A stretch of DNA of 64,000 nucleotides, taken from Hyphomicrobiales bacterium. Its GTDB lineage: Bacteria > Pseudomonadota > Alphaproteobacteria > Rhizobiales > Rhizobiaceae. Of the stretch, positions 4,740-23,996 are shown piece after piece (positions within the stretch are counted from its first letter, which is position 1; every line of letters begins with the position of its first letter). The position numbers and the translations under genes were made by a program. The DNA is taken from contig UBZT01000025.1 of the NCBI GenBank assembly GCA_900470155.1, positions 1 to 64,000 on the forward strand, in the 5' to 3' direction. Under the pieces are notes generated by a model. It was not told the DNA's origin. It did not search any database and saw nothing but the letters and a program-made list of their open reading frames with translations.

Positions 4740-5734
4740 ATCGCCAGTCCCTTATCATTGAACCGGTGAATGCGGTTCGGATCAGGCGTGATGAACACGG
4801 TATCACCGTGTTTCACGGTGAATTCGCCGCCAGCGCGGGTGGTAATATGGCCGATGCCCTCGACATCGACATGCAGGAACGTGTCGGAGCCCAGATGCTC
4901 TGCGACAACGACCTTGCCCTTCCACGTGCCTTCGGTTGTCGACAGCGTCACGTGTTCGGGGCGAACCCCGATCGTATGGGCGCTGTAGGTTCCGGCAAAA
5001 GCGCCCGAGATCAGGTTCATCTTCGGTGAGCCGATGAAACCGGCGACAAAGATGTTAGCCGGCTTGTGATAGAGATCGAGTGGCGAGCCAACCTGTTCGA
5101 TACGCCCCTTGTTCAAGACGACGATCTTGTCGGCCATTGTCATGGCTTCGACCTGATCATGCGTCACATAGATCGAGGTCGCCTTCAGCTGCTGGTGCAA
5201 CTGGGTGATTTCCAGCCGCATGTTGACGCGCAGCGCCGCATCGAGGTTCGACAAGGGTTCGTCGAACAGGAAGCATTCCGGCGAACGCACGATCGCGCGG
5301 CCGATGGCGACGCGCTGGCGCTGGCCACCCGACAGGTTGCGCGGCTTGCGCTCTAGGTAGTCAGTCAGGTTGAGGATCTTTGCCGCGTCATTGACCTTGC
5401 GGTCGATCTCTGCCTTGTCCATTCCGGCCATCTTCAAGGGGAAGCCGATATTGGAGCGCACGCTCATATGCGGATAAAGGGCATAGGACTGGAACACCAT
5501 CGCCAGGCCGCGCTGCGAGGGAGCCTTGTCCGTGGCGTCGACCCCGTCGATCAGGATCTTGCCGCCCGAGACATCCTCGAGACCTGCAATCAGGCGAAGC
5601 AAGGTGGACTTTCCGCAGCCCGAGGGACCAACGAAGACTGCAAATTCGCCGTCGTTGATCTGCAGGTCGATCGAGGGGATGACCGAGACTTCGCCGAAGG
5701 TTTTCGACACGTTTTGAAGTGTGATGCTACCCAT
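4736..5734 (-). CDS. smoK: Polyol ABC transporter ATP-binding protein
   Basis: This 332-residue MalK/UgpC-type ATPase energises the polyol importer at the inner face of the membrane. Walker [10 protein letters not shown] is at 36-44, the signature LSGGQ at 134-138, Walker B ends in Asp158-Glu159, and the switch histidine lies in a VTHDQVEA segment near 190. A C-terminal regulatory TOBE-like domain follows (about 240-332). All catalytic motifs are intact, unlike the paired ATPases of the glycerol importer in this window. It lies 11 bp after the permease gene. Confidence 0.9.
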
Positions 5735-5745
5735 TATGGTCTTCC

Positions 5746-6570
5746 TTATTTGACGGCGCCGAAGGTCAAGCCGCGGACAAGCTGTTTCTGGCTGAACCAG
5801 CCAAGGATCACGATCGGGGCGATGGCCAGCGTCGAAGCGGCGGACAGCTTCGCCCAGAAGAGTCCCTGCGGTGAGGAGAAGGAGGCGATGAACGCCGTCA
5901 GCGGCGCTGCATTGGTCGTGGTCAGCCGGATCGTCCAGAAGGCTTCGTTCCAGGCGAGAATGATATTGAGCAACATGGTCGACGCGATGCCCGGGATCGC
6001 CATCGGCGTCAGGACATAGACGATCTCGCCCCAGAGCGATGCCCCGTCCATGCGGGCAGCTTCCAGGATTTCACCGGGAATCTCGCGGAAGTAGGTGTAG
6101 AGCATCCAGATGACGATCGGCAGGTTGATCAGCATCAGCATGATGGTCAGGCCGATACGGGTGTCGAGCAGTCCTGTATCGCGAAAGATCAGGTAGATCG
6201 GCACGAGTACGGCGACCGCGGGCATCATCTTGGTCGACAACATCCACATCAGGATGTCCTTGGTCCGCTTTGTCGGCGAAAACGCCATGGCCCAGGCAGA
6301 CGGGATCGCGATGATCAGCGCCAGGATGGTGGAGCCGACCGAGATGATCACCGAGTTCATGAACGGCTTGAAATAGTCGCGCTGCGTCTGCACCGTGACA
6401 TAGTTCTCCAGCGTGAACGACGGGATCAGCCGGAAGCCCTGGATCGCTTCGGTCTCGGTCTTGAGCGACGTGATGATCGTGTAGAGGATGGGGAAGAAGA
6501 TCACCATCGCGAGGATCCATGCGACGACCGTAAAGGCGATCTTGCGCTGGGTGGAGACTGTTCGGGCCAT
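5746..6570 (-). CDS. smoG: Polyol ABC transporter permease (MalG type)
   Basis: This 274-residue integral inner-membrane protein has about six predicted helices. The EAA loop contacting the ATPase reads [14 protein letters not shown], near residues 178-191. The N-terminal helix and the P-type periplasmic loop match the MalG half of carbohydrate transporters. It is followed 11 bp later by smoK and preceded 12 bp upstream by smoF. Assignment to polyol uptake rests on the operon. Confidence 0.88.
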
Positions 6571-14012: not shown

Positions 14013-14804
14013 ATGATTTTTTCCGCGCGTCAAGCCGAAATCATGGCCATCGCAAAGGAGCAGGGGCGTGTTCTGGTTGAAGAACTTGCCACGCGTTTCG
14101 CCGTCACGCCGCAAACCATCCGCAAGGACCTCAACGACCTCTGTGATACCAGGGCGCTGAACCGCATTCATGGCGGTGCCGTATTTCCGAACGGAAATGA
14201 AAACGTCAAATACGAAGCGCGCCGATCCATGGCGGCGGCCGAAAAACAGGCGATCGGTCGGGCAGCGGCCGCATTGATTCCGGACAACTCGTCGCTTTTC
14301 ATCAATATCGGCACGACCACGGAAGCTGTCGGCGAAGCGCTTGTTGACCACAGGGAGCTGATGGTTATCACCAATAATATCAATGTCGCCAATCGCTTGC
14401 GTGTCTATCCCTCGATCGAGGTGGTGATTGCCGGCGGCGTTGTCCGTGGCGCTGACGGCGGTATCGTCGGTGAGGCTGCGGTCGATTTCATCCGCCAGTT
14501 CAAGGTTGATTTCGCGGTGATCGGCGTTTCGGCGATCGATGAGGATGGGGCACTGCTGGACTTCGATTTTCGAGAAGTGAAGGTGGCGCAGGCCATCATC
14601 GCCAATGCAAGGCACGTCGTGCTGGTTTCCGATGCCTCGAAGTTCGAGCGCACGGCACCTGTGCGTATTGGGCATATTTCCCAGGTTCATACCTTCATTA
14701 CCGACCATTGTCCTTCGGCCAATGTCCGGGCGATCTGCCTGGACAAGGAGGTCCAGTTGCTTGAGACGACCCCTTCGGACATCGGCCAGGACAGATCGGC
14801 GTAA
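14013..14804 (+). CDS. glpR: Glycerol-3-phosphate regulon repressor, DeoR family
   Basis: This 263-residue DeoR-family repressor has an N-terminal helix-turn-helix (about 20-42, LVEELATRFAVTPQTIRKDL) and the RIHGGAV linker typical of the family. A C-terminal sugar-phosphate binding domain follows (NIGTTTEAVGEAL, GGVVRGADGGIVG). Its place immediately before glpD, the glycerol transporter genes and glpK identifies it as the GlpR that senses glycerol 3-phosphate. Strong GGGGAGGGG precedes the ATG. Confidence 0.92.
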   Translation: MIFSARQAEIMAIAKEQGRVLVEELATRFAVTPQTIRKDLNDLCDTRALNRIHGGAVFPNGNENVKYEARRSMAAAEKQAIGRAAAALIPDNSSLFINIGTTTEAVGEALVDHRELMVITNNINVANRLRVYPSIEVVIAGGVVRGADGGIVGEAAVDFIRQFKVDFAVIGVSAIDEDGALLDFDFREVKVAQAIIANARHVVLVSDASKFERTAPVRIGHISQVHTFITDHCPSANVRAICLDKEVQLLETTPSDIGQDRSA

Positions 14805-14893: not shown

Positions 14894-16405
14894 ATGACGG
14901 ACGAGCCTATCTACGATCTGTTTGTGATCGGTGGCGGCATCAACGGCTGCGGCATTGCCCGTGACGCCGCTGGCCGGGGCTATACCGTTGCGCTTGCCGA
15001 AATGAACGATTTTGCCTCGGGCACATCCTCAGGCGCGACCAAGCTGATCCACGGTGGTCTCCGTTATCTCGAACATTACGAATTTCGCCTCGTGCGCGAA
15101 GCGTTGATGGAGCGCGAAGTGCTGTGGGCCATGGCGCCGCATGTTATCTGGCCGCTGCGTTTTGTCCTGCCGTTCCAGAAGGGCGGCATCCGTCCGGCAT
15201 GGCTGATCCGCCTTGGCCTGTTTCTCTACGATCATCTCGGCGGCAGAAAGCTGCTCCCGGCGACCAAGACCTTGGATCTCCGCCGGGATCAGGCCGGACA
15301 GCCGCTGAAGCCAATTTTTGCGAAGGCCTTTGAATATTCCGATGGCTGGGTCGATGATGCCCGCATGGTCGTGCTCAATGCGCGTGACGCGGAAATTCGC
15401 GGCGCCCGCATTTTCAGCCGCGCCAGGGTGATCTCGGCCCATCGCGAAAACGGCGTATGGGTCGTGACGACCAAGGCCAAGGGCAGCGGAGCGACAACCG
15501 TCCACCGCGCCCGAATGCTGGTCAATGCAGCCGGTCCCTGGGTCGATCAGGTGCTCGCTGGTGCTTTCGGCCGCAACAACGTTCACAATGTTCGCCTGGT
15601 TCAGGGCAGCCATATCATTGTCCGCAGGAAGTTTGCCGATAAACGTGCCTACTTCTTCCAGAATCCGGACAATCGCATCATCTTTGCCATTCCCTATGAA
15701 GGCGATTTCACCCTGATCGGCACAACGGATCGTGACTACACGGATGATCCGAAGGATGTGAAGATCAGTGCGGAGGAGGTAAACTACCTCTGCAATGCCG
15801 CGAGCGAGTATTTCAAGGAACCGGTCGTACCGGACGACATTGTCTGGAGCTATTCTGCCGTGCGTCCGCTGTTCGACGATGGCGCCTCCAAGGCGCAGGA
15901 AGCGACCCGCGACTACGTGCTGAAGGTCGAGGCAGCGGACGACGGAGCGCCGCTGTTGAATGTATTTGGCGGCAAGCTGACGACCTATCGTCGCCTGGCC
16001 GAGCATGCTCTCGAAAAGATCGGTGAAGCGATCGGTGTCAAGGGCATTGCGTGGACCGCAGGCAGTCGGCTTCCGGGCGGCGATTTTCTCGTGACCGGCT
16101 ATGATGCCACGGTGCAGGAACTCATCGGCGTCTATCCGTTTCTGGAACGTCGCCATGCGGAACGTCTCATCCGCTGCTACGGGACGGATGCAAAAACCAT
16201 TCTCGGAAATGCGGCGACGACCGAGGATCTAGGTCGGCATTTCGGCGGAAGTCTCTACGAGTGCGAATTGCGCTGGTTGATGGAAAAGGAATGGGCGGTC
16301 ACGGCCGAGGATGTGCTGTGGCGCCGAACGAAACAAGGGTTGTTCCTGTCGCCTGAGGAGGCGCGGGGGCTGGAGGAATACTTGGGGACTGTCGCGGCGA
16401 GCTAG
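14894..16405 (+). CDS. glpD: Aerobic glycerol-3-phosphate dehydrogenase
   Basis: This 503-residue FAD-dependent, membrane-associated enzyme oxidises glycerol 3-phosphate to dihydroxyacetone phosphate and passes electrons to quinone. The N-terminal dinucleotide motif GGGINGCG is at 13-20. Further family segments are GTSSGATKLIHGGLRYLEHYEFRLV split over the FAD domain, and VFGGKLTTYR near residue 360. Length is normal. AGGGGAAC precedes the ATG. It is the first gene of the glycerol operon, behind the candidate GlpR repeats. Confidence 0.95.
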   Translation: MTDEPIYDLFVIGGGINGCGIARDAAGRGYTVALAEMNDFASGTSSGATKLIHGGLRYLEHYEFRLVREALMEREVLWAMAPHVIWPLRFVLPFQKGGIRPAWLIRLGLFLYDHLGGRKLLPATKTLDLRRDQAGQPLKPIFAKAFEYSDGWVDDARMVVLNARDAEIRGARIFSRARVISAHRENGVWVVTTKAKGSGATTVHRARMLVNAAGPWVDQVLAGAFGRNNVHNVRLVQGSHIIVRRKFADKRAYFFQNPDNRIIFAIPYEGDFTLIGTTDRDYTDDPKDVKISAEEVNYLCNAASEYFKEPVVPDDIVWSYSAVRPLFDDGASKAQEATRDYVLKVEAADDGAPLLNVFGGKLTTYRRLAEHALEKIGEAIGVKGIAWTAGSRLPGGDFLVTGYDATVQELIGVYPFLERRHAERLIRCYGTDAKTILGNAATTEDLGRHFGGSLYECELRWLMEKEWAVTAEDVLWRRTKQGLFLSPEEARGLEEYLGTVAAS

Positions 16406-16452: not shown

Positions 16453-17535
16453 ATGTTGGAATTGAAGAACATCTCGAAGATGGCGGGCGGTGAATACCAC
16501 ATTCACCCGACCGACCTGACGTTGCAGCGGGGTTCGCTGAATGTCCTGCTCGGGCCGACGCTTTCGGGCAAGACATCGCTGATGCGGCTGATGGCCGGGC
16601 TGGACAAGCCGACATCCGGCACGATCCATGTCGATGGCATCGATGTCACTGGAAAGCCGGTGCAGCAACGCAATGTCGCCATGGTCTACCAGCAATTCAT
16701 CAATTATCCGGCCCTGACGGTGTATGAAAACATCGCCTCGCCGATGCGCATTGCCGGCAAGGACGCCGCCACCATCGATCGCGAGGTGCACAAGGCCTCG
16801 GACCTGTTGCGGCTGACGCCCTATCTTCAACGCACGCCACTCAGCCTCTCCGGTGGTCAGCAGCAGCGCACGGCGCTTGCCCGCGCGCTGGTGAAAAAGG
16901 CGACACTGGTCCTGCTGGACGAGCCACTGGCCAATCTCGACTACAAGCTGCGTGAGGAATTACGCGAGGAGCTGCCGAAGATTTTTGCCCAGTCCGGCGC
17001 TATCTTTGTTTACGCGACGACAGAACCGTCGGAGGCCTTGCTGCTTGGGGGCAACACAGCAACCCTGAGCGAAGGGCGTGTGACGCAGTTTGGCGAGACC
17101 ATCGGCATCTATCGCCAGCCGGTCGATCTGTTGACGGCGAAAACCTTCGCAGACCCGCCATTGAACACCCTGGCACTGGTGAAATCCGGCCAGCAGTTCC
17201 TGCTGGCTGACCGCCATGTGCTTGACGTTCCGGCGCATCTTGCAGGCGTGGCGGATGGGCCGCTGACGGTCGCTTTCCATCCTCACCATCTGTCGCTGGC
17301 GGCAACATCCCATGCCGCTAAGCCGTTGCGAGTTCGTACGCTGGTGTCGGAAATCGCCGGCTCGGAAAGCTTCATCCACGTCGAATTTGCCGGTGCGCGC
17401 TGGGTTATCCTTGCGCACGGCATCCACGACATCGATCCGGACAAGGAAATCGACGTCTATATCGACACCCGTCACCTGATGGCATTTGACGTGCAGGGCC
17501 AGTCCCTGCTCGCCCATGCCAGCATGGCCGCTTGA
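16453..17535 (+). CDS. glpS: Glycerol ABC transporter ATP-binding protein GlpS
   Basis: This 360-residue MalK-like ATPase is one of two consecutive and different ATPases of the glycerol importer. Walker A GPTLSGKTS is at 34-42, the signature LSGGQ at 132-136 and Walker B Asp156-Glu157. At the switch (H-loop) position it reads YATTEPSEA, with Thr190 where a histidine is expected, so its own ATP site should hydrolyse poorly. The gene order glpD-glpS-T-P-Q-U-V matches the glycerol operon described in Rhizobium leguminosarum. The C-terminal about 120 residues form a TOBE-like regulatory domain. Confidence 0.9.
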   Translation: MLELKNISKMAGGEYHIHPTDLTLQRGSLNVLLGPTLSGKTSLMRLMAGLDKPTSGTIHVDGIDVTGKPVQQRNVAMVYQQFINYPALTVYENIASPMRIAGKDAATIDREVHKASDLLRLTPYLQRTPLSLSGGQQQRTALARALVKKATLVLLDEPLANLDYKLREELREELPKIFAQSGAIFVYATTEPSEALLLGGNTATLSEGRVTQFGETIGIYRQPVDLLTAKTFADPPLNTLALVKSGQQFLLADRHVLDVPAHLAGVADGPLTVAFHPHHLSLAATSHAAKPLRVRTLVSEIAGSESFIHVEFAGARWVILAHGIHDIDPDKEIDVYIDTRHLMAFDVQGQSLLAHASMAA

Positions 17536-17548
17536 AGGGAGGCGCGAC

Positions 17549-18619
17549 ATGGCACGTATCAATCTCGACCATATCCGCCACGCTTATTCCCCCGCTGCCC
17601 GCGCGGCGGGAGACTATGCGCTGAAGGAAGTCCATCACGAATGGGCTGACGGCGGCGCCTATGCCCTGCTCGGGCCTTCCGGCTGCGGCAAGACGACCCT
17701 GCTCAACATCATTTCCGGGCTGATCAACCCTTCTGACGGCAAGATCCTGTTCGACGGTGTCGACGTGACCAACCTCTCGACCCAGGCCCGCAACATCGCC
17801 CAGGTTTTCCAGTTTCCGGTCGTCTACGACACGATGAGCGTTTACGACAATCTCGCCTTTCCGTTGCGCAATCGCCATGTGCCGGAAGATCAGGTTCATC
17901 GCCGCGTCACCGAAATCCTCGAGATGACAGATCTCGCCGCGATGGCGAAGAAGACCGCACAAGGCCTGACAGCGGACCAGAAGCAGAAGATTTCGCTTGG
18001 CCGCGGCCTGGTTCGCGCCGATGTCAACGCGATCCTGTTCGATGAACCGCTGACGGTGATCGATCCGCATATGAAATGGGTGCTGCGCTCTCAGTTGAAG
18101 CGCCTGCATCGCCAATCCGGCTTCACCATGGTCTATGTCACGCACGATCAGACCGAGGCGCTGACCTTCGCCGACAAGGTTGTGGTGATGTATGACGGCC
18201 AGATCGTCCAGATTGGCACGCCGGCCGAACTGTTCGAGAAGCCCAGCCACACATTCGTCGGCTATTTCATCGGTTCGCCCGGCATGAATGTCCTGCCCGC
18301 TGCCGTGAATGGCGCGACCGCGACCGTCGGTGACCAGTCCATCGCCCTTCCCGGTGTGCCGAAACTGTCGGGCCAGTCCAAGATAGAGCTCGGCATTCGT
18401 CCCGAATTCGTCCGCCTTGGACGCGAGGGCATGCCTATCACGATTTCCAAGGTCGAGGATATCGGTCGCCAGAAGATCATCCGCACGCGGTTTTGCGATC
18501 AGCCGATGTCGATCGTCGTAGCAGAAGACACGGACATTCCATCGGATCCGAAAGTGACGTTCGCACCCCAGGCGATCGGGATTTACGCCGATAGCTGGCG
18601 CGTGGGCATGGAGGGCTGA
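17549..18619 (+). CDS. glpT: Glycerol ABC transporter ATP-binding protein GlpT
   Basis: This 356-residue partner ATPase has Walker A GPSGCGKTT at 42-50, Walker B Asp165-Glu166 and an intact switch histidine His199 (VTHDQTEA). Its signature is degenerate, LTADQ at 140-144 instead of LSGGQ, and the D-loop reads TVID instead of NLD. These defects are complementary to those of GlpS. GAAGGGAGG precedes the ATG, which lies 13 bp after glpS. It is not the unrelated E. coli glycerol-3-phosphate antiporter of the same name. Confidence 0.9.
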   Translation: MARINLDHIRHAYSPAARAAGDYALKEVHHEWADGGAYALLGPSGCGKTTLLNIISGLINPSDGKILFDGVDVTNLSTQARNIAQVFQFPVVYDTMSVYDNLAFPLRNRHVPEDQVHRRVTEILEMTDLAAMAKKTAQGLTADQKQKISLGRGLVRADVNAILFDEPLTVIDPHMKWVLRSQLKRLHRQSGFTMVYVTHDQTEALTFADKVVVMYDGQIVQIGTPAELFEKPSHTFVGYFIGSPGMNVLPAAVNGATATVGDQSIALPGVPKLSGQSKIELGIRPEFVRLGREGMPITISKVEDIGRQKIIRTRFCDQPMSIVVAEDTDIPSDPKVTFAPQAIGIYADSWRVGMEG

Positions 18620-18622
18620 GCG

Positions 18623-19492
18623 ATGAACAAGACCTGGAACAACAAAGCCTGGTTCATGGTCATTCCGGTGTTGGTGCTGGTGGCCTTCTCCGCCGTCATC
18701 CCGCTGATGACCGTGGTCAACTACTCGGTCCAGGACACCTTCGGCAACAACGAGTTCTTCTGGGCCGGCACTGACTGGTTTACGGAAATCCTGTCCTCGG
18801 ACCGGTTCTGGAATGCGCTTGGTCGCAACATGATCTTCTCAATGATCATCCTGGCGATCGAAGTGCCGCTCGGCATCCTGATCGCGCTCAACATGCCGAA
18901 AAAAGGTCTTGGCGTGCCTGTCTGCCTCGTCTTGATGGCACTGCCGCTGCTCATTCCGTGGAACGTTGTCGGTACGATCTGGCAGGTCTTCGGCCGCGTC
19001 GATATCGGCCTGCTCGGCTACACGCTGAATGCCATGGGCGTCGACTACAACCTGACCCAGGACCCGGTCGACGCCTGGATCACCGTCATTGCCATGGACG
19101 TCTGGCACTGGACCAGCCTCGTGGTGCTGCTGTGTTATGCCGGCCTCGTCTCGATCCCGGATGCCTATTACCAGGCCGCCAAGATTGATGGTGCCTCGCG
19201 CCTCTCGGTCTTCCGCTATATCCAGTTGCCGAAGATGAAGCGTGTGCTCCTGATCGCCGTCCTGCTCCGCTTCATGGATTCGTTCATGATCTACACCGAG
19301 CCTTTCGTCGTCACCGGCGGCGGGCCGGGCAATTCCACCACCTTCCTGTCGATCGACCTCGTCAAGATGGCCGTCGGCCAGTTCGACCTCGGTCCGGCAG
19401 CCGCCATGTCCATCATCTACTTCCTAATCATCCTGCTGCTGTCATGGGTCTTCTACACCGTGATGACCGTCAGCGACGCAAAGAGCCAGTAA
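18623..19492 (+). CDS. glpP: Glycerol ABC transporter permease GlpP
   Basis: This 289-residue inner-membrane permease of the MalF type has about six helices and an EAA-like loop reading QAAKIDGASRLSVF near residues 190-203. It begins three bases after the glpT stop with GGAGGGC upstream, so it is translationally linked. It forms the membrane channel with GlpQ. Confidence 0.88.
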   Translation: MNKTWNNKAWFMVIPVLVLVAFSAVIPLMTVVNYSVQDTFGNNEFFWAGTDWFTEILSSDRFWNALGRNMIFSMIILAIEVPLGILIALNMPKKGLGVPVCLVLMALPLLIPWNVVGTIWQVFGRVDIGLLGYTLNAMGVDYNLTQDPVDAWITVIAMDVWHWTSLVVLLCYAGLVSIPDAYYQAAKIDGASRLSVFRYIQLPKMKRVLLIAVLLRFMDSFMIYTEPFVVTGGGPGNSTTFLSIDLVKMAVGQFDLGPAAAMSIIYFLIILLLSWVFYTVMTVSDAKSQ

Positions 19493-19505: not shown

Positions 19506-20324
19506 ATGAGCAATTCCGACGATCGTTCGCGCTTCGGCTTTCTGATCCCGACGGTCTATATCGTGTTCCTGCTCCTGCCGATCTATTGGCTGGTCAACAT
19601 GAGCTTCAAGACCAACGCGGAAATCACCGGGGCGCTCTCGCTCTGGCCCGTAAATCCGACGCTTGGCAACTACATGGTGATCTTCACCGATCCGTCGTGG
19701 TACAAGGGCTATATCAACTCGATCATCTATGTCTGCCTGAACACGGTGATCTCCGTTGCCGCAGCCCTGCCGGCGGCTTACGCCTTCTCGCGCTACAGGT
19801 TCCTCGGCGACAAGCACCTGTTCTTCTGGCTCTTGACCAACCGCATGGCGCCGCCGGCCGTCTTTGCGCTGCCCTTCTTCCAGCTCTATTCGGCCTTCGG
19901 CCTCATCGACACGCATATCGCGGTCGCGCTTGCCCACTGCCTGTTCAATGTGCCGCTGGCGGTGTGGATCCTCGAAGGTTTCATGTCGGGCGTGCCGAAG
20001 GAAATCGACGAAACCGCCTATATCGACGGCTATTCCTTCCCGCGCTTCTTCGTGAAGATCTACATGCCGCTGATCGCCTCGGGCATCGGTGTCGCCGCCT
20101 TCTTCTGCTTCATGTTCTCCTGGGTCGAGCTCCTGATCGCCCGCACACTTACGACAACCGACGCCAAGCCGATCGCTGCCATCATGACGCGCACCGTCTC
20201 GGCCTCGGGCATGGACTGGGGCGTGCTGGCAGCCGCCGGCGTGCTCACCATCATCCCGGGCGCACTCGTGATCTATTTCGTCCGCAACTACATCGCCAAG
20301 GGCTTTGCCCTGGGCCGCGTCTGA
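19506..20324 (+). CDS. glpQ: Glycerol ABC transporter permease GlpQ
   Basis: This 272-residue inner-membrane permease of the MalG type has a cytoplasmic loop reading ETAYIDGYSFPRFF, corresponding to the EAA motif. Multiple hydrophobic helices start from residue 13. AAGGAGG lies before the ATG, 13 bp after glpP. It is unrelated to the glycerophosphodiester phosphodiesterase called GlpQ in enterics. Confidence 0.88.
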   Translation: MSNSDDRSRFGFLIPTVYIVFLLLPIYWLVNMSFKTNAEITGALSLWPVNPTLGNYMVIFTDPSWYKGYINSIIYVCLNTVISVAAALPAAYAFSRYRFLGDKHLFFWLLTNRMAPPAVFALPFFQLYSAFGLIDTHIAVALAHCLFNVPLAVWILEGFMSGVPKEIDETAYIDGYSFPRFFVKIYMPLIASGIGVAAFFCFMFSWVELLIARTLTTTDAKPIAAIMTRTVSASGMDWGVLAAAGVLTIIPGALVIYFVRNYIAKGFALGRV

Positions 20325-20334
20325 GGAGGCGTCG

Positions 20335-20616
20335 ATGAACTTCACATGGATGGCCTGGACGCTGCCGACGGCGCTCTTCTTCATCGCGATCTTCACGCTG
20401 ATCGTCTCGATGGCGGTCTGGGAATACTTCTCGCCCGGCGGCAATCCGCGCGTCGGCGTGCTGCGCTTTGAAACCACGCGCGGCGACCGGCTCTTCGTGT
20501 CGCTGCTCGGATCAGCCTTTATTCATCTCGCTTGGCTCGGCCTTGTTGGGTCGAACCTGTGGTGGGCTCTCGCTCTCTCCGTGGTCTACGCCATCGGCGT
20601 ATTTCGCTACGTATAG
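20335..20616 (+). CDS. glpU: Small membrane protein GlpU (DUF2160)
   Basis: This 93-residue protein has three hydrophobic segments (about 8-27, 52-69 and 72-88) and belongs to the DUF2160 group found next to permeases of this glycerol transporter. TGAGGAGGC overlaps the glpQ stop and precedes the ATG. The family is known only as an accessory of the glycerol ABC operon; its role in the complex is unknown. Confidence 0.85.
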   Translation: MNFTWMAWTLPTALFFIAIFTLIVSMAVWEYFSPGGNPRVGVLRFETTRGDRLFVSLLGSAFIHLAWLGLVGSNLWWALALSVVYAIGVFRYV

Positions 20617-20699: not shown

Positions 20700-22421
20700 A
20701 TGCGAAAGCACCTTTTAACGACGACGGCGACAATGCTTCTCGCCATGACCGGCGTGGCATTCGCCGACATGGACGCGGCAAAGAAATTCCTGGACACCGA
20801 GATCGGCGACATGTCGTCTCTCGACCGCGCGTCCCAGGAAGCCGAACTGCAGTGGTTCATCGATGCGGCAAAGCCCTTTGCCGGCATGGATATCAAGGTG
20901 GTCTCCGAGACCATCACCACGCATGAATACGAATCCAAGGTTCTGGCGCCGGCATTTACCGCGATCACCGGCATCAAGATCACCCATGACCTGATCGGCG
21001 AAGGCGATGTTGTCGAAAAGCTGCAGACCCAGATGCAGTCGGGCGAGAACATCTATGACGCCTATGTCAACGACTCGGACCTGATCGGCACCCACTGGCG
21101 CTACCAGCAGGCCCGCTCGCTGACCGACTGGATGGCCAATGCCGGCAAGGACGTCACCAATCCCGGCCTCGACCTGAACGACTTCATCGGCCTGAAGTTC
21201 ACCACGTCGCCGGACGGCAATCTCTACCAGTTGCCCGACCAGCAGTTCGCCAACCTCTACTGGTTCCGGTATGACTGGTTCAACGACGACAAGAACAAGG
21301 CCGACTTCAAGGCGAAGTATGGCTACGACCTCGGCGTACCCGTCAACTGGTCTGCCTATGAGGACATCGCCGAGTTCTTCACTGGCCGCGAAATCGACGG
21401 CAAGAAGGTCTTCGGCCACATGGACTACGGCAAGAAGGACCCGTCTCTCGGCTGGCGCTTCACCGATGCCTGGCTCTCCATGGCCGGCAACGGCGACAAG
21501 GGCCTGCCGAACGGCCTGCCGGTCGACGAATGGGGCATCAAGGTCAATGAAAAGTCCCAGCCGGTCGGCTCTTGCGTCGCCCGCGGTGGTGATACCAACG
21601 GCCCGGCCTCGGTCTACGCCATCCAGAAGTACCTCGACTGGTTGAAGGCCTATGCACCGCCGGAAGCGCAGGGCATGACCTTCGGTGAAGCCGGTCCGGT
21701 GCCTGCCCAGGGCAACGTCGCCCAGCAGATGTTCACCTACACCGCCTTCACCGCCGATTTCGTCAAGGAAGGCCTCGCCGTCGTCAATGCGGATGGTACG
21801 CCGAAATGGCGTTTTGCACCCAGCCCGCACGGCGTCTACTGGAAGGACGGCATGAAGCTCGGTTACCAGGATGTCGGTTCCTGGACCCTGATGAAGTCGA
21901 CCCCTGACGACCGCGCCAAGGCCGCATGGCTCTATGCGCAGTTCGTCACCTCGAAGACCGTGGACGTGAAGAAGAGCCAGGTTGGCCTGACGCTCATCCG
22001 CGAATCGACGATCCAGCACAAGTCGTTCACCGACCGTGCGCCGAAGCTCGGTGGTCTGATCGAGTTCTACCGTTCGCCGGCCCGCGTCCAGTGGTCGCCG
22101 ACCGGAACGAACATCCCTGACTATCCGAAGCTGGCACAGCTGTGGTGGCAGGCGATCGGCGATGCATCCTCGGGTGCAAAGACCGCGCAGGAAGCCATGG
22201 ATTCGCTTTGCGCCGAGCAGGAAAAGGTCCTGCAGCGTCTTGAGCGTGCAGGCGTCCAGGGTGACATCGGTCCGGCACTCGCCGAGGAAAAGACCCTCGA
22301 AGAGTGGAATGCCGACGCTGTCGCCAAGGGCAACCTGGCACCGCAGCTGAAGATCGCCGAAGAAAAAGAAAAGCCGATGACGGTCAACTACGACGAACTC
22401 GTCAAGAGCTGGCAGAAGTAA
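20700..22421 (+). CDS. glpV: Glycerol ABC transporter periplasmic binding protein GlpV
   Basis: This 573-residue secreted solute-binding protein has a signal peptide MRKHLLTTTATMLLAMTGVAFA, then a family 1 binding fold that is longer than the usual 400-450 residues. The ATG is set by AGGGAGGA just upstream. It would deliver glycerol to GlpPQ. It is last of the transporter genes and is followed by a hairpin and glpK. Confidence 0.9.
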   Translation: MRKHLLTTTATMLLAMTGVAFADMDAAKKFLDTEIGDMSSLDRASQEAELQWFIDAAKPFAGMDIKVVSETITTHEYESKVLAPAFTAITGIKITHDLIGEGDVVEKLQTQMQSGENIYDAYVNDSDLIGTHWRYQQARSLTDWMANAGKDVTNPGLDLNDFIGLKFTTSPDGNLYQLPDQQFANLYWFRYDWFNDDKNKADFKAKYGYDLGVPVNWSAYEDIAEFFTGREIDGKKVFGHMDYGKKDPSLGWRFTDAWLSMAGNGDKGLPNGLPVDEWGIKVNEKSQPVGSCVARGGDTNGPASVYAIQKYLDWLKAYAPPEAQGMTFGEAGPVPAQGNVAQQMFTYTAFTADFVKEGLAVVNADGTPKWRFAPSPHGVYWKDGMKLGYQDVGSWTLMKSTPDDRAKAAWLYAQFVTSKTVDVKKSQVGLTLIRESTIQHKSFTDRAPKLGGLIEFYRSPARVQWSPTGTNIPDYPKLAQLWWQAIGDASSGAKTAQEAMDSLCAEQEKVLQRLERAGVQGDIGPALAEEKTLEEWNADAVAKGNLAPQLKIAEEKEKPMTVNYDELVKSWQK

Positions 22422-22502: not shown

Positions 22503-23996
22503 ATGAGCGGTTACATTCTGGCGATTGACCAGGGAACGACGTCGACGCGTTCGATGATCTTCGATCAAGACATGCACATTGTCGGTGTCGCGCAGCAGGA
22601 ATTCACGCAGCATTTCCCCGATTCCGGCTGGGTCGAACATGATGCCGACGAGATCTGGCAGAGTGTCCTGAAGACCATAGACAGGGCAGTCGCCGCAGCG
22701 GGCATCAAGATCGGCGACGTGACTGCGATCGGAATCACCAATCAGCGTGAGACCGTCGTGGTCTGGGACCGCGAAACAGGCAAGCCCATGCATCATGCGA
22801 TCGTCTGGCAGGACCGTCGCACGGCGCGTTTTTGCGATGAACTGAAGGCGAAGGGCCTGGAACCGCTGTTCACGGAGAAGACCGGCCTGCTGCTCGATCC
22901 GTATTTCTCCGGCACCAAGCTTTCCTGGCTGCTCAAGAATGTCGATGGTCTGAAGGCGCGTGCAGAAAGAGGCGAACTCTGCTTTGGCACGGTCGATAGC
23001 TGGCTCATCTACAAGCTGACCGGCGGCAAGGTCCACGCGACGGATGCCACGAATGCCTCGCGAACATTGATCTACGATATCGGCGAAAACCGGTTCGATG
23101 ACGACCTGCTGCAGATTCTTGAGATCCCGCGGGCGATGCTACCGGAAGTCAAGGACTGCGCCGATGACTTCGGCATCACCGAAACCTCTGTTCTGGGCGC
23201 GGCCATCCCGATCCTCGGCGTGGCCGGCGACCAGCAGGCAGCCGTCATCGGCAACGCCTGCTTTGAGCCGGGCATGATGAAATCGACCTATGGAACGGGC
23301 TGTTTTGCACTGTTAAACACCGGATCGGATCGTGTCACCTCGTCGAACCGCCTGCTGACCACGATAGCGTACAGGATGAACGGCAAGACGACCTATGCCC
23401 TCGAGGGTTCGATCTTCATCGCCGGTGCCGCCGTACAGTGGCTTCGCGACGAACTGGGCTTCGTCAAGGTCGCGTCCGATACCGATGCGCTGGCCATGCG
23501 GGCCGATCCAAACCAGCGTGTCTATCTTGTGCCAGCCTTTACCGGTCTTGGTGCGCCACATTGGGATGCGGATGCGCGCGGTGCGATCTTCGGGCTGACC
23601 CGCAGTTCCGGCCCAGCCGAATTTGCCCGCGCCGTGTTGGAAAGCGTGGCCTATCAGACCAATGACCTGCTCGAAGCGATGAAGAAGGACTGGTCGGGTG
23701 CCAGCGAGCAAACCGTCCTGCGCGTCGATGGGGGCATGGTCGCGTCCGACTGGACGATGCAGCGCCTTGCCGACATTCTCGACGCACCCGTCGACCGTCC
23801 GATGATCCTGGAGACCACCGTGTTGGGCGCCGCTTGGCTTGCGGGCTCGCGTGCAGGACTTTGGCCGGATCAGGCAGGTTTTGCCGCGACCTGGAAACGC
23901 AACCGCCGTTTCGAACCGCAGATGCAATCTGCTGAAAGAGAGAAGGCGATCGCCGGCTGGCAGGATTGCGTCAGCCGCTGCCTGACCAAGCGATAG
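22503..23996 (+). CDS. glpK: Glycerol kinase
   Basis: This 497-residue FGGY kinase phosphorylates glycerol to glycerol 3-phosphate with ATP. It has the N-terminal [13 protein letters not shown], the glycerol-binding WVEHD segment, NQRET, and STYGTGCF and [17 protein letters not shown] in the C-terminal lobe. Length is normal. It ends the glycerol operon and supplies the substrate of GlpD; GlpK trapping drives net uptake. AAGGGAGC lies upstream of the ATG. Confidence 0.96.

Follow-up and report, generated by a model that had tools for sequence, protein, structure and literature searches.

The two ATPase subunits of a predicted glycerol importer, GlpS and GlpT, carry complementary motif changes that, in the majority of their homologues, map to a single composite ATP site. 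We infer from these sequences that GlpS and GlpT probably form an obligate heterodimer in which one ATP site is catalytic and the other structural, with hydrolysis unequal between the two. Both genes lie in the window, which is the whole stretch of 64,000 nucleotides of a Hyphomicrobiales genome (contig UBZT01000025.1) that was analyzed.

The operon comprises glpR (14013-14804), glpD for glycerol-3-phosphate dehydrogenase (14894..16405), glpS (16453..17535; ABC ATPase subunit, 360 aa), glpT (17549..18619; ABC ATPase subunit, 356 aa), genes for the permeases GlpP (18623..19492) and GlpQ (19506..20324), glpU for a small membrane protein with the DUF2160 domain (20335..20616; PF09928), glpV for a solute-binding protein of 573 aa (20700..22421), and glpK for glycerol kinase (22503..23996), with all genes from glpD onward on the + strand and glpD and glpK supplying the pathway context. 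The names glpP, glpQ, glpU, and glpV are those of the operon described in the available part of PMC7912956. This set of two ATPases, two permeases, a DUF2160 protein, and a binding protein beside glpD, glpK, and glpR matches the GlpSTPQV importer, so that the operon is of the GlpSTPQV type by gene set and glycerol transport by the proteins of this strain is predicted. A mutant table for the homologous genes of Ruegeria pomeroyi (glpVSTPQ), in the part of PMC10130141 available to us, lists values of 79.6% and 78.8% with glycerol; read as growth and drawdown deficits, these indicate that the glpVSTPQ family transports it. Of 398 genomes searched from the phylum, 85 have the DUF2160 protein, and they are nearly the same genomes as those with GlpV. 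A PDB sequence search with GlpV returned no relative.

In GlpS, the signature LSGGQ (residues 132-136; 16846..16860, + strand) is intact and the D-loop is complete, but its own Walker A and H-loop are altered. The Walker A motif reads GPTLSGKT (34-41), with Thr36-Leu37 (16558..16563, +) where control ATPases have Ser-Gly and with the motif lysine and flanking glycine retained; LVLLDEP follows at 152-158, and YATTEP (187-192; 17011..17028, +) places Thr190 (17020-17022) at the position of the switch histidine, flanked by the further changes Ala188, Glu191, and Pro192. GlpT has intact Walker A (GPSGCGKT, 42-49) and Walker B (AILFDEP, 161-167) motifs, the Q-loop glutamine, and an intact H-loop (YVTHDQ, 196-201) with the switch histidine His199 (18143..18145, +). 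Its signature is the degenerate LTADQ (140-144; 17966..17980, +), with Asp143 (17975-17977) at the second glycine of LSGGQ, and its D-loop is the altered LTVID (168-172; 18050..18064, +). HMMER alignments place GlpS Thr190 opposite the histidine of 1v43 and GlpT LTADQ opposite the LSGGQ of 2it1, both MalK-type ATPases. The two subunits are 30% identical across 247 aligned residues. The sequence-only reading had named LSGGQ and Thr190 in GlpS and LTADQ, His199, and an altered D-loop in GlpT, and it was right to the residue; the additional Walker A and H-loop changes of GlpS and the changes in the permeases described below were not on its list.

Homologues were collected in two ways. A GlpV search (E ≤ 1e-60) covering 398 genomes from the phylum and 249 from the order found the protein in 87 and 96 genomes, respectively, and flanking DNA was taken from 100 GlpV places, a choice among those listed. 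A GlpS/GlpT pair was present near GlpV in 94 of these 100 places (93 plus L293, which is outside the distinct pairs counted here). No GlpS/GlpT-like ATPases were found on either flank of the GlpV places L060 to L063; of the other places without a pair, L064 runs into the end of its contig, and the one in genome G472 (L099, L294) has none in the stretches read. Another 80 pairs come from 80 named loci that ranked highest among at least 590 hits of a GlpT profile. The pooled set contains 171 distinct GlpS/GlpT protein pairs. L106 to L109, taken with L060 to L063, have GlpV-like binding proteins (53-62% identity) for which the stretches read on both sides contain no GlpS/GlpT-like ATPase, and these proteins are possibly sensors; in L107, one of them precedes a protein that has weak similarity to an amino-acid binding protein.

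All 171 distinct pairs have LSGGQ in GlpS and the switch histidine in GlpT. Position 190 of GlpS is Thr in 162, Ser in 8, and Ala in 1 and is never the switch histidine, while the Ser-Gly-Gly columns of the GlpT signature read TAD in 135, SAD in 14, SPD in 8, GAD in 7, AAD in 4, and TPD, GAA, and SAA in 1 each, so that SGG occurs in none of the 171. Aligning homologues for co-occurrence of the two substitutions, as had been proposed from the sequence alone, thus shows them together in every distinct pair. The LTVID D-loop of GlpT is identical in 173/173 loci, and the catalytic glutamate is retained in both subunits in the same number. The eight loci with Ser190 in GlpS are the same eight that have SPD in GlpT, and all have glpV before glpS. 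Among loci L101 to L120, 16 pairs were found, all with glpV before glpS rather than behind glpQ, and 8 of the 16 have Ser190 with SPD. One locus, L191 of Mesorhizobium sediminum (4775-5988), has a broken GlpS frame with the two motifs in two frames, both present (LSGGQ in the second), which reflects either a sequencing error or a pseudogene. It was dropped from the GlpS alignment, which has 171 rows including the window against 172 rows for GlpT.

As controls from the same superfamily, we used 40 ATPases, 17 of them encoded in the genome of the window and 23 at loci retrieved with the UgpC model. Both the switch histidine and SGG are present in all 40, and all 45 ABC hits in the control loci likewise retain them. 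Because none of the 40 controls lacks the histidine or SGG, versus complementary losses in 171/171 pairs, these losses are more than chance. The genome has a second operon for a sugar importer with two ATPases (L132; contig C20, 240000-250500). This operon and its relatives have the switch histidine in 42/42 subunits, indicating that duplication alone does not cause its loss. Some signature drift in one subunit occurs in this family too: SGG is present in 31/42 subunits, and the other 11, all of them first subunits, have AGG or SSG. The first-ATPase signatures of the L132 relatives drift to LSGGD, LAGGD, or LSSGD with both switch histidines kept, which is possibly an early stage of asymmetry. 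The L132 operon adjoins a dihydroxyacetone-kinase-like gene, and a further MalK-type ATPase encoded in the window (4778-5740, - strand) is 44% identical to its second ATPase. For the motif-column alignment, 37 of the 40 controls were used; the two from L132 were treated with the two-ATPase operons, and one, the second of L228, was left out.

In a composite ATP site, one ATPase supplies the Walker A and B motifs and the Q- and H-loops, and its partner supplies the signature (PMC7756269, available in part); the D-loop, which lies at the interface, was counted here with the signature. We scored motif columns that are at least 95% fixed in the 37 controls, giving 23 per composite site (14 cis and 9 trans). 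In the majority of GlpS rows, the changes are S36T and G37L in Walker A and V188A, H190T, D191E, and Q192P in the H-loop, with none at signature or D-loop columns. In the majority of GlpT rows, they are the S, G, G, and Q of the signature, the arginine three residues on, and the D-loop leucine (now I171), with none at Walker A, Walker B, Q-loop-Gln, or H-loop columns. Consequently, 12/23 columns are changed in most rows in the site formed by the GlpS Walker motifs and the GlpT signature, versus 0/23 in the opposite site (Fisher p = 7e-5, an optimistic value, since the choice of columns followed inspection of the table and columns within a motif are not independent). Counted as whole motifs, four are changed, and finding all four in one site would have odds of about 1 in 8 if the losses were independent. 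The signature glutamine was scored as changed with Q at GlpT 144 in 44% of rows, Q being the control letter and the residue present in the GlpT of the window. Neighboring positions that are fixed in controls and differ here were left out of the tally (GlpS 42, 44, and 79; GlpT 53, 56, 149, 175, and 176; and both Q-loop flanks); of these, both Q-loop flanks and two residues of the GlpT helix that follows Walker A (Asn53 and Ser56) face the permease. The earlier proposal of asymmetric sites gains support from this distribution, with the heterodimer and the unequal hydrolysis still to be understood as presumed.

In our proposal, the GlpP/GlpQ permease carries GlpS and GlpT as an obligate heterodimer. 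One site, which combines the Walker A and B motifs and the Q- and H-loops of GlpT with the signature and D-loop of GlpS, is complete and would carry out the hydrolysis that drives import. In the other, the GlpS Walker A and B motifs would act without a histidine switch, opposite the LTADQ and LTVID of GlpT, with the Walker lysine and catalytic glutamate present; this site probably binds nucleotide with little or no turnover and may serve as a structural hinge. Neither homodimer would have any complete site, which would enforce heterodimerization. With the catalytic glutamate of GlpS kept in all 173 loci, unlike in many exporter degenerate sites, the second site may still turn over slowly. A stronger form of this idea, that both sites hydrolyze because the glutamate, aided by Thr190, turns the second site over and the changes only tune its rate or communication, is in our judgment unlikely. 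It has in its favor that Glu157, the Walker lysine, the Walker B aspartate, and the Q-loop glutamine of GlpS are all fixed and that residue 190 bears a hydroxyl (Thr or Ser) in 170/171 pairs, but it must contend with a GlpT signature that lacks Ser-Gly-Gly in all 171 pairs and mostly places an aspartate where the gamma-phosphate would be held. Asp143 of GlpT corresponds in position to G551D in CFTR. That substitution, in LSGGQ, impairs ATP binding and hydrolysis according to passages of PMC10727502, which also argues against turnover at both sites.

The membrane side shows a parallel asymmetry. In the maltose importer, Arg47 of MalK bridges to the glutamate of the EAA loop, and its counterpart is arginine in 35/37 controls and missing in the other two. 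GlpS keeps this residue as Arg45 (16585..16587, +; R in 156, K in 10, and Q in 5 of 171 rows), whereas in GlpT it is replaced by Asn53 (17705..17707, +; N in 169 and S in 3 of 172 rows). The permeases, read in 170/171 loci for GlpP and 169/171 for GlpQ, differ likewise: the EAA-loop glutamate of GlpP is glutamine in 169/170 loci (Gln184 in the window, 19172-19174) and arginine once, and that of GlpQ is kept in 168/169 (Glu169, 20010-20012) with a gap once. Arg/Glu in GlpS/GlpQ occurs together with Asn/Gln in GlpT/GlpP in 150/170 pairs tabulated. One GlpQ-like control permease also has glutamine at the EAA glutamate, and such membrane-side losses are not unique to the GlpSTPQ family. The Arg/Glu pattern suggests that GlpT docks on GlpP and GlpS on GlpQ, in which case Asn53 would face Gln184 and Arg45 would face Glu169, with a salt bridge on one side only. 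We tentatively, and with considerable doubt, outline a one-ATP importer with a one-sided clutch, in which hydrolysis would take place at the GlpT site alone, Asp143 would either block closure of the GlpS site or mimic the gamma-phosphate and hold the site shut on ADP as a hinge, the loss of the Arg/Glu pair between GlpT and GlpP would loosen coupling on the catalytic half only, and one ATP would be spent per glycerol.

In a tree of 87 proteins, 15 GlpS and 15 GlpT sequences each fall on one side of a fully supported branch with a long stem, and a quicker tree with 28 of each gave the same split. Since each subunit forms one clade, the complementary losses were retained from one ancestral state rather than arising by repeated co-loss, and they most likely predate the GlpS/GlpT family. 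The L132 pair, whose Walker A GPTGAGKT resembles that of GlpS, was considered as a sister of GlpS/GlpT in the same 87 rows, which include the 15 GlpS and 15 GlpT. No S-B or T-A pairing was supported there, and the tree speaks neither for nor against common ancestry of the two pairs. AlphaFold monomer models (mean pLDDT of 87 for GlpS and 89 for GlpT) match MalK, SugC, and MsmX over their full length, with TM-scores mostly about 0.8, indicating an ABC ATPase domain followed by a MalK-type regulatory domain in both proteins; Pfam OB_MalK matches GlpT only. The best NCBIfam model for both is UgpC (NF008653), at 232 bits for GlpS and 276 for GlpT, below its cutoff of 432, and MalK-type ATPases of other systems top the PDB sequence matches (best 60 of 537 for GlpS and of 555 for GlpT).

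Inheritance from one ancestor would also be expected if a spare site had simply lost its motifs neutrally after gene duplication, one good site sufficing, and some heterodimeric exporters, TAP and ABCC1 among them, are active with a mutated degenerate site (PMC7756269, in the sections available). We nevertheless regard neutral decay as very improbable. The families diverge to 42% identity for GlpS and 49% for GlpT (2000 sampled row pairs each), and yet the derived residues are conserved (GlpT Asp143 in 99% and LTVID in 100%; GlpS Glu191 in 99% and Pro192 in 98%), which argues that the change in the ATP site is not simple decay. Mean conservation is 0.94 over degenerate-site columns and 0.996 over consensus-site columns, compared with 0.77 and 0.80 over the ATPase domains of GlpS and GlpT. 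More variable among the derived positions are GlpT 144 (Q 44%), GlpT 141 (T 80%), and GlpS 37 (L 85%), and the consensus site itself is imperfectly fixed (GlpT Pro43, 91%). That GlpS and GlpT do not pair and that each instead partners an ATPase of another importer is scarcely credible, even though MalK-type ATPases that serve several importers, such as the shared MsmX, exist (PMC7658222, seen in excerpt), because glpS lies next to glpT and ahead of it on the same strand in 173/173 loci (gap of -11 to 280 bases, median 13) and the losses are mutually complementary.

An old question, approached with artificial mutants of symmetric transporters, is whether both ATP sites of a MalK-type importer have to work. 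If the heterodimer with one catalytic site is real, GlpST would be a natural answer to it, an importer that looks single sited and is retained by genomes of the window's class and by others of the phylum beyond that class. With it, the ATP used per substrate could be counted and the role of a nonhydrolyzing site in an importer tested, and GlpT Asp143 would offer for study a counterpart of a disease mutation that is tolerated in nature. A literature search over titles and the beginnings of abstracts, with most subscription papers outside its reach, showed among the matches listed no degenerate site described for a two-gene MalK-type importer. When GlpSTPQV and "glycerol ABC transporter" were searched, only the latter term was among the matches listed, mostly in Mycoplasma papers. 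Degenerate sites are known in exporters and in fused importer ATPases, and the two-gene MalK-type case is, as far as we have found, new.

Among the exporters, TAP1/TAP2 (ABCB2/B3) and TM287/288 resemble GlpST in having two different ATPase domains and one altered composite site with the H-loop affected, but in their degenerate sites the catalytic glutamate is replaced as a rule, while GlpS keeps it (PMC7756269, available sections). Loss of this residue is usual but not universal in degenerate-site transporters and has occurred in neither GlpS nor GlpT. The exporters also have their fold joined to the ATPases, whereas GlpST serves separate EAA-loop importer permeases and a solute-binding protein. 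ABCG5/ABCG8 is similar in having a degenerate site with signature and Walker A changes (same source and sections), although it is a sterol transporter of another fold whose Walker A lysine is replaced, a residue that GlpS keeps. Among importers, RbsA (ribose) and NupO (nucleosides) have one degenerate site with an off-consensus signature, as described in the accessible part of PMC11466899. The suggestion that asymmetric sites are rarely discussed for sugar importers therefore holds for the two-gene MalK type, as far as searched, and not for these fused proteins. In RbsA and NupO, two domains share one chain and the second Walker A lacks its lysine, whereas GlpST is encoded by two MalK/UgpC-type genes, both with the lysine. 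DppD/DppF of the E. coli dipeptide importer are likewise two separate, different ATPases and are set beside consensus and degenerate sites in a supplementary figure; they differ in belonging to a peptide importer with iron-sulfur clusters and in showing ATPgammaS density in both subunits (PMC12136057, in part). The glpSTPQUV operon of Rhizobium leguminosarum VF39 has the same genes, flanked by glpD and glpK, and the passages on it in PMC7912956 contain nothing on ATP-site asymmetry. MalK2 of the E. coli maltose importer and UgpC have the same full-length fold as GlpS and GlpT. MalK2 is a symmetric homodimer with two complete sites, and a mutation in one of its two subunits is enough to cripple maltose import; GlpST would then tolerate by design what MalK does not.
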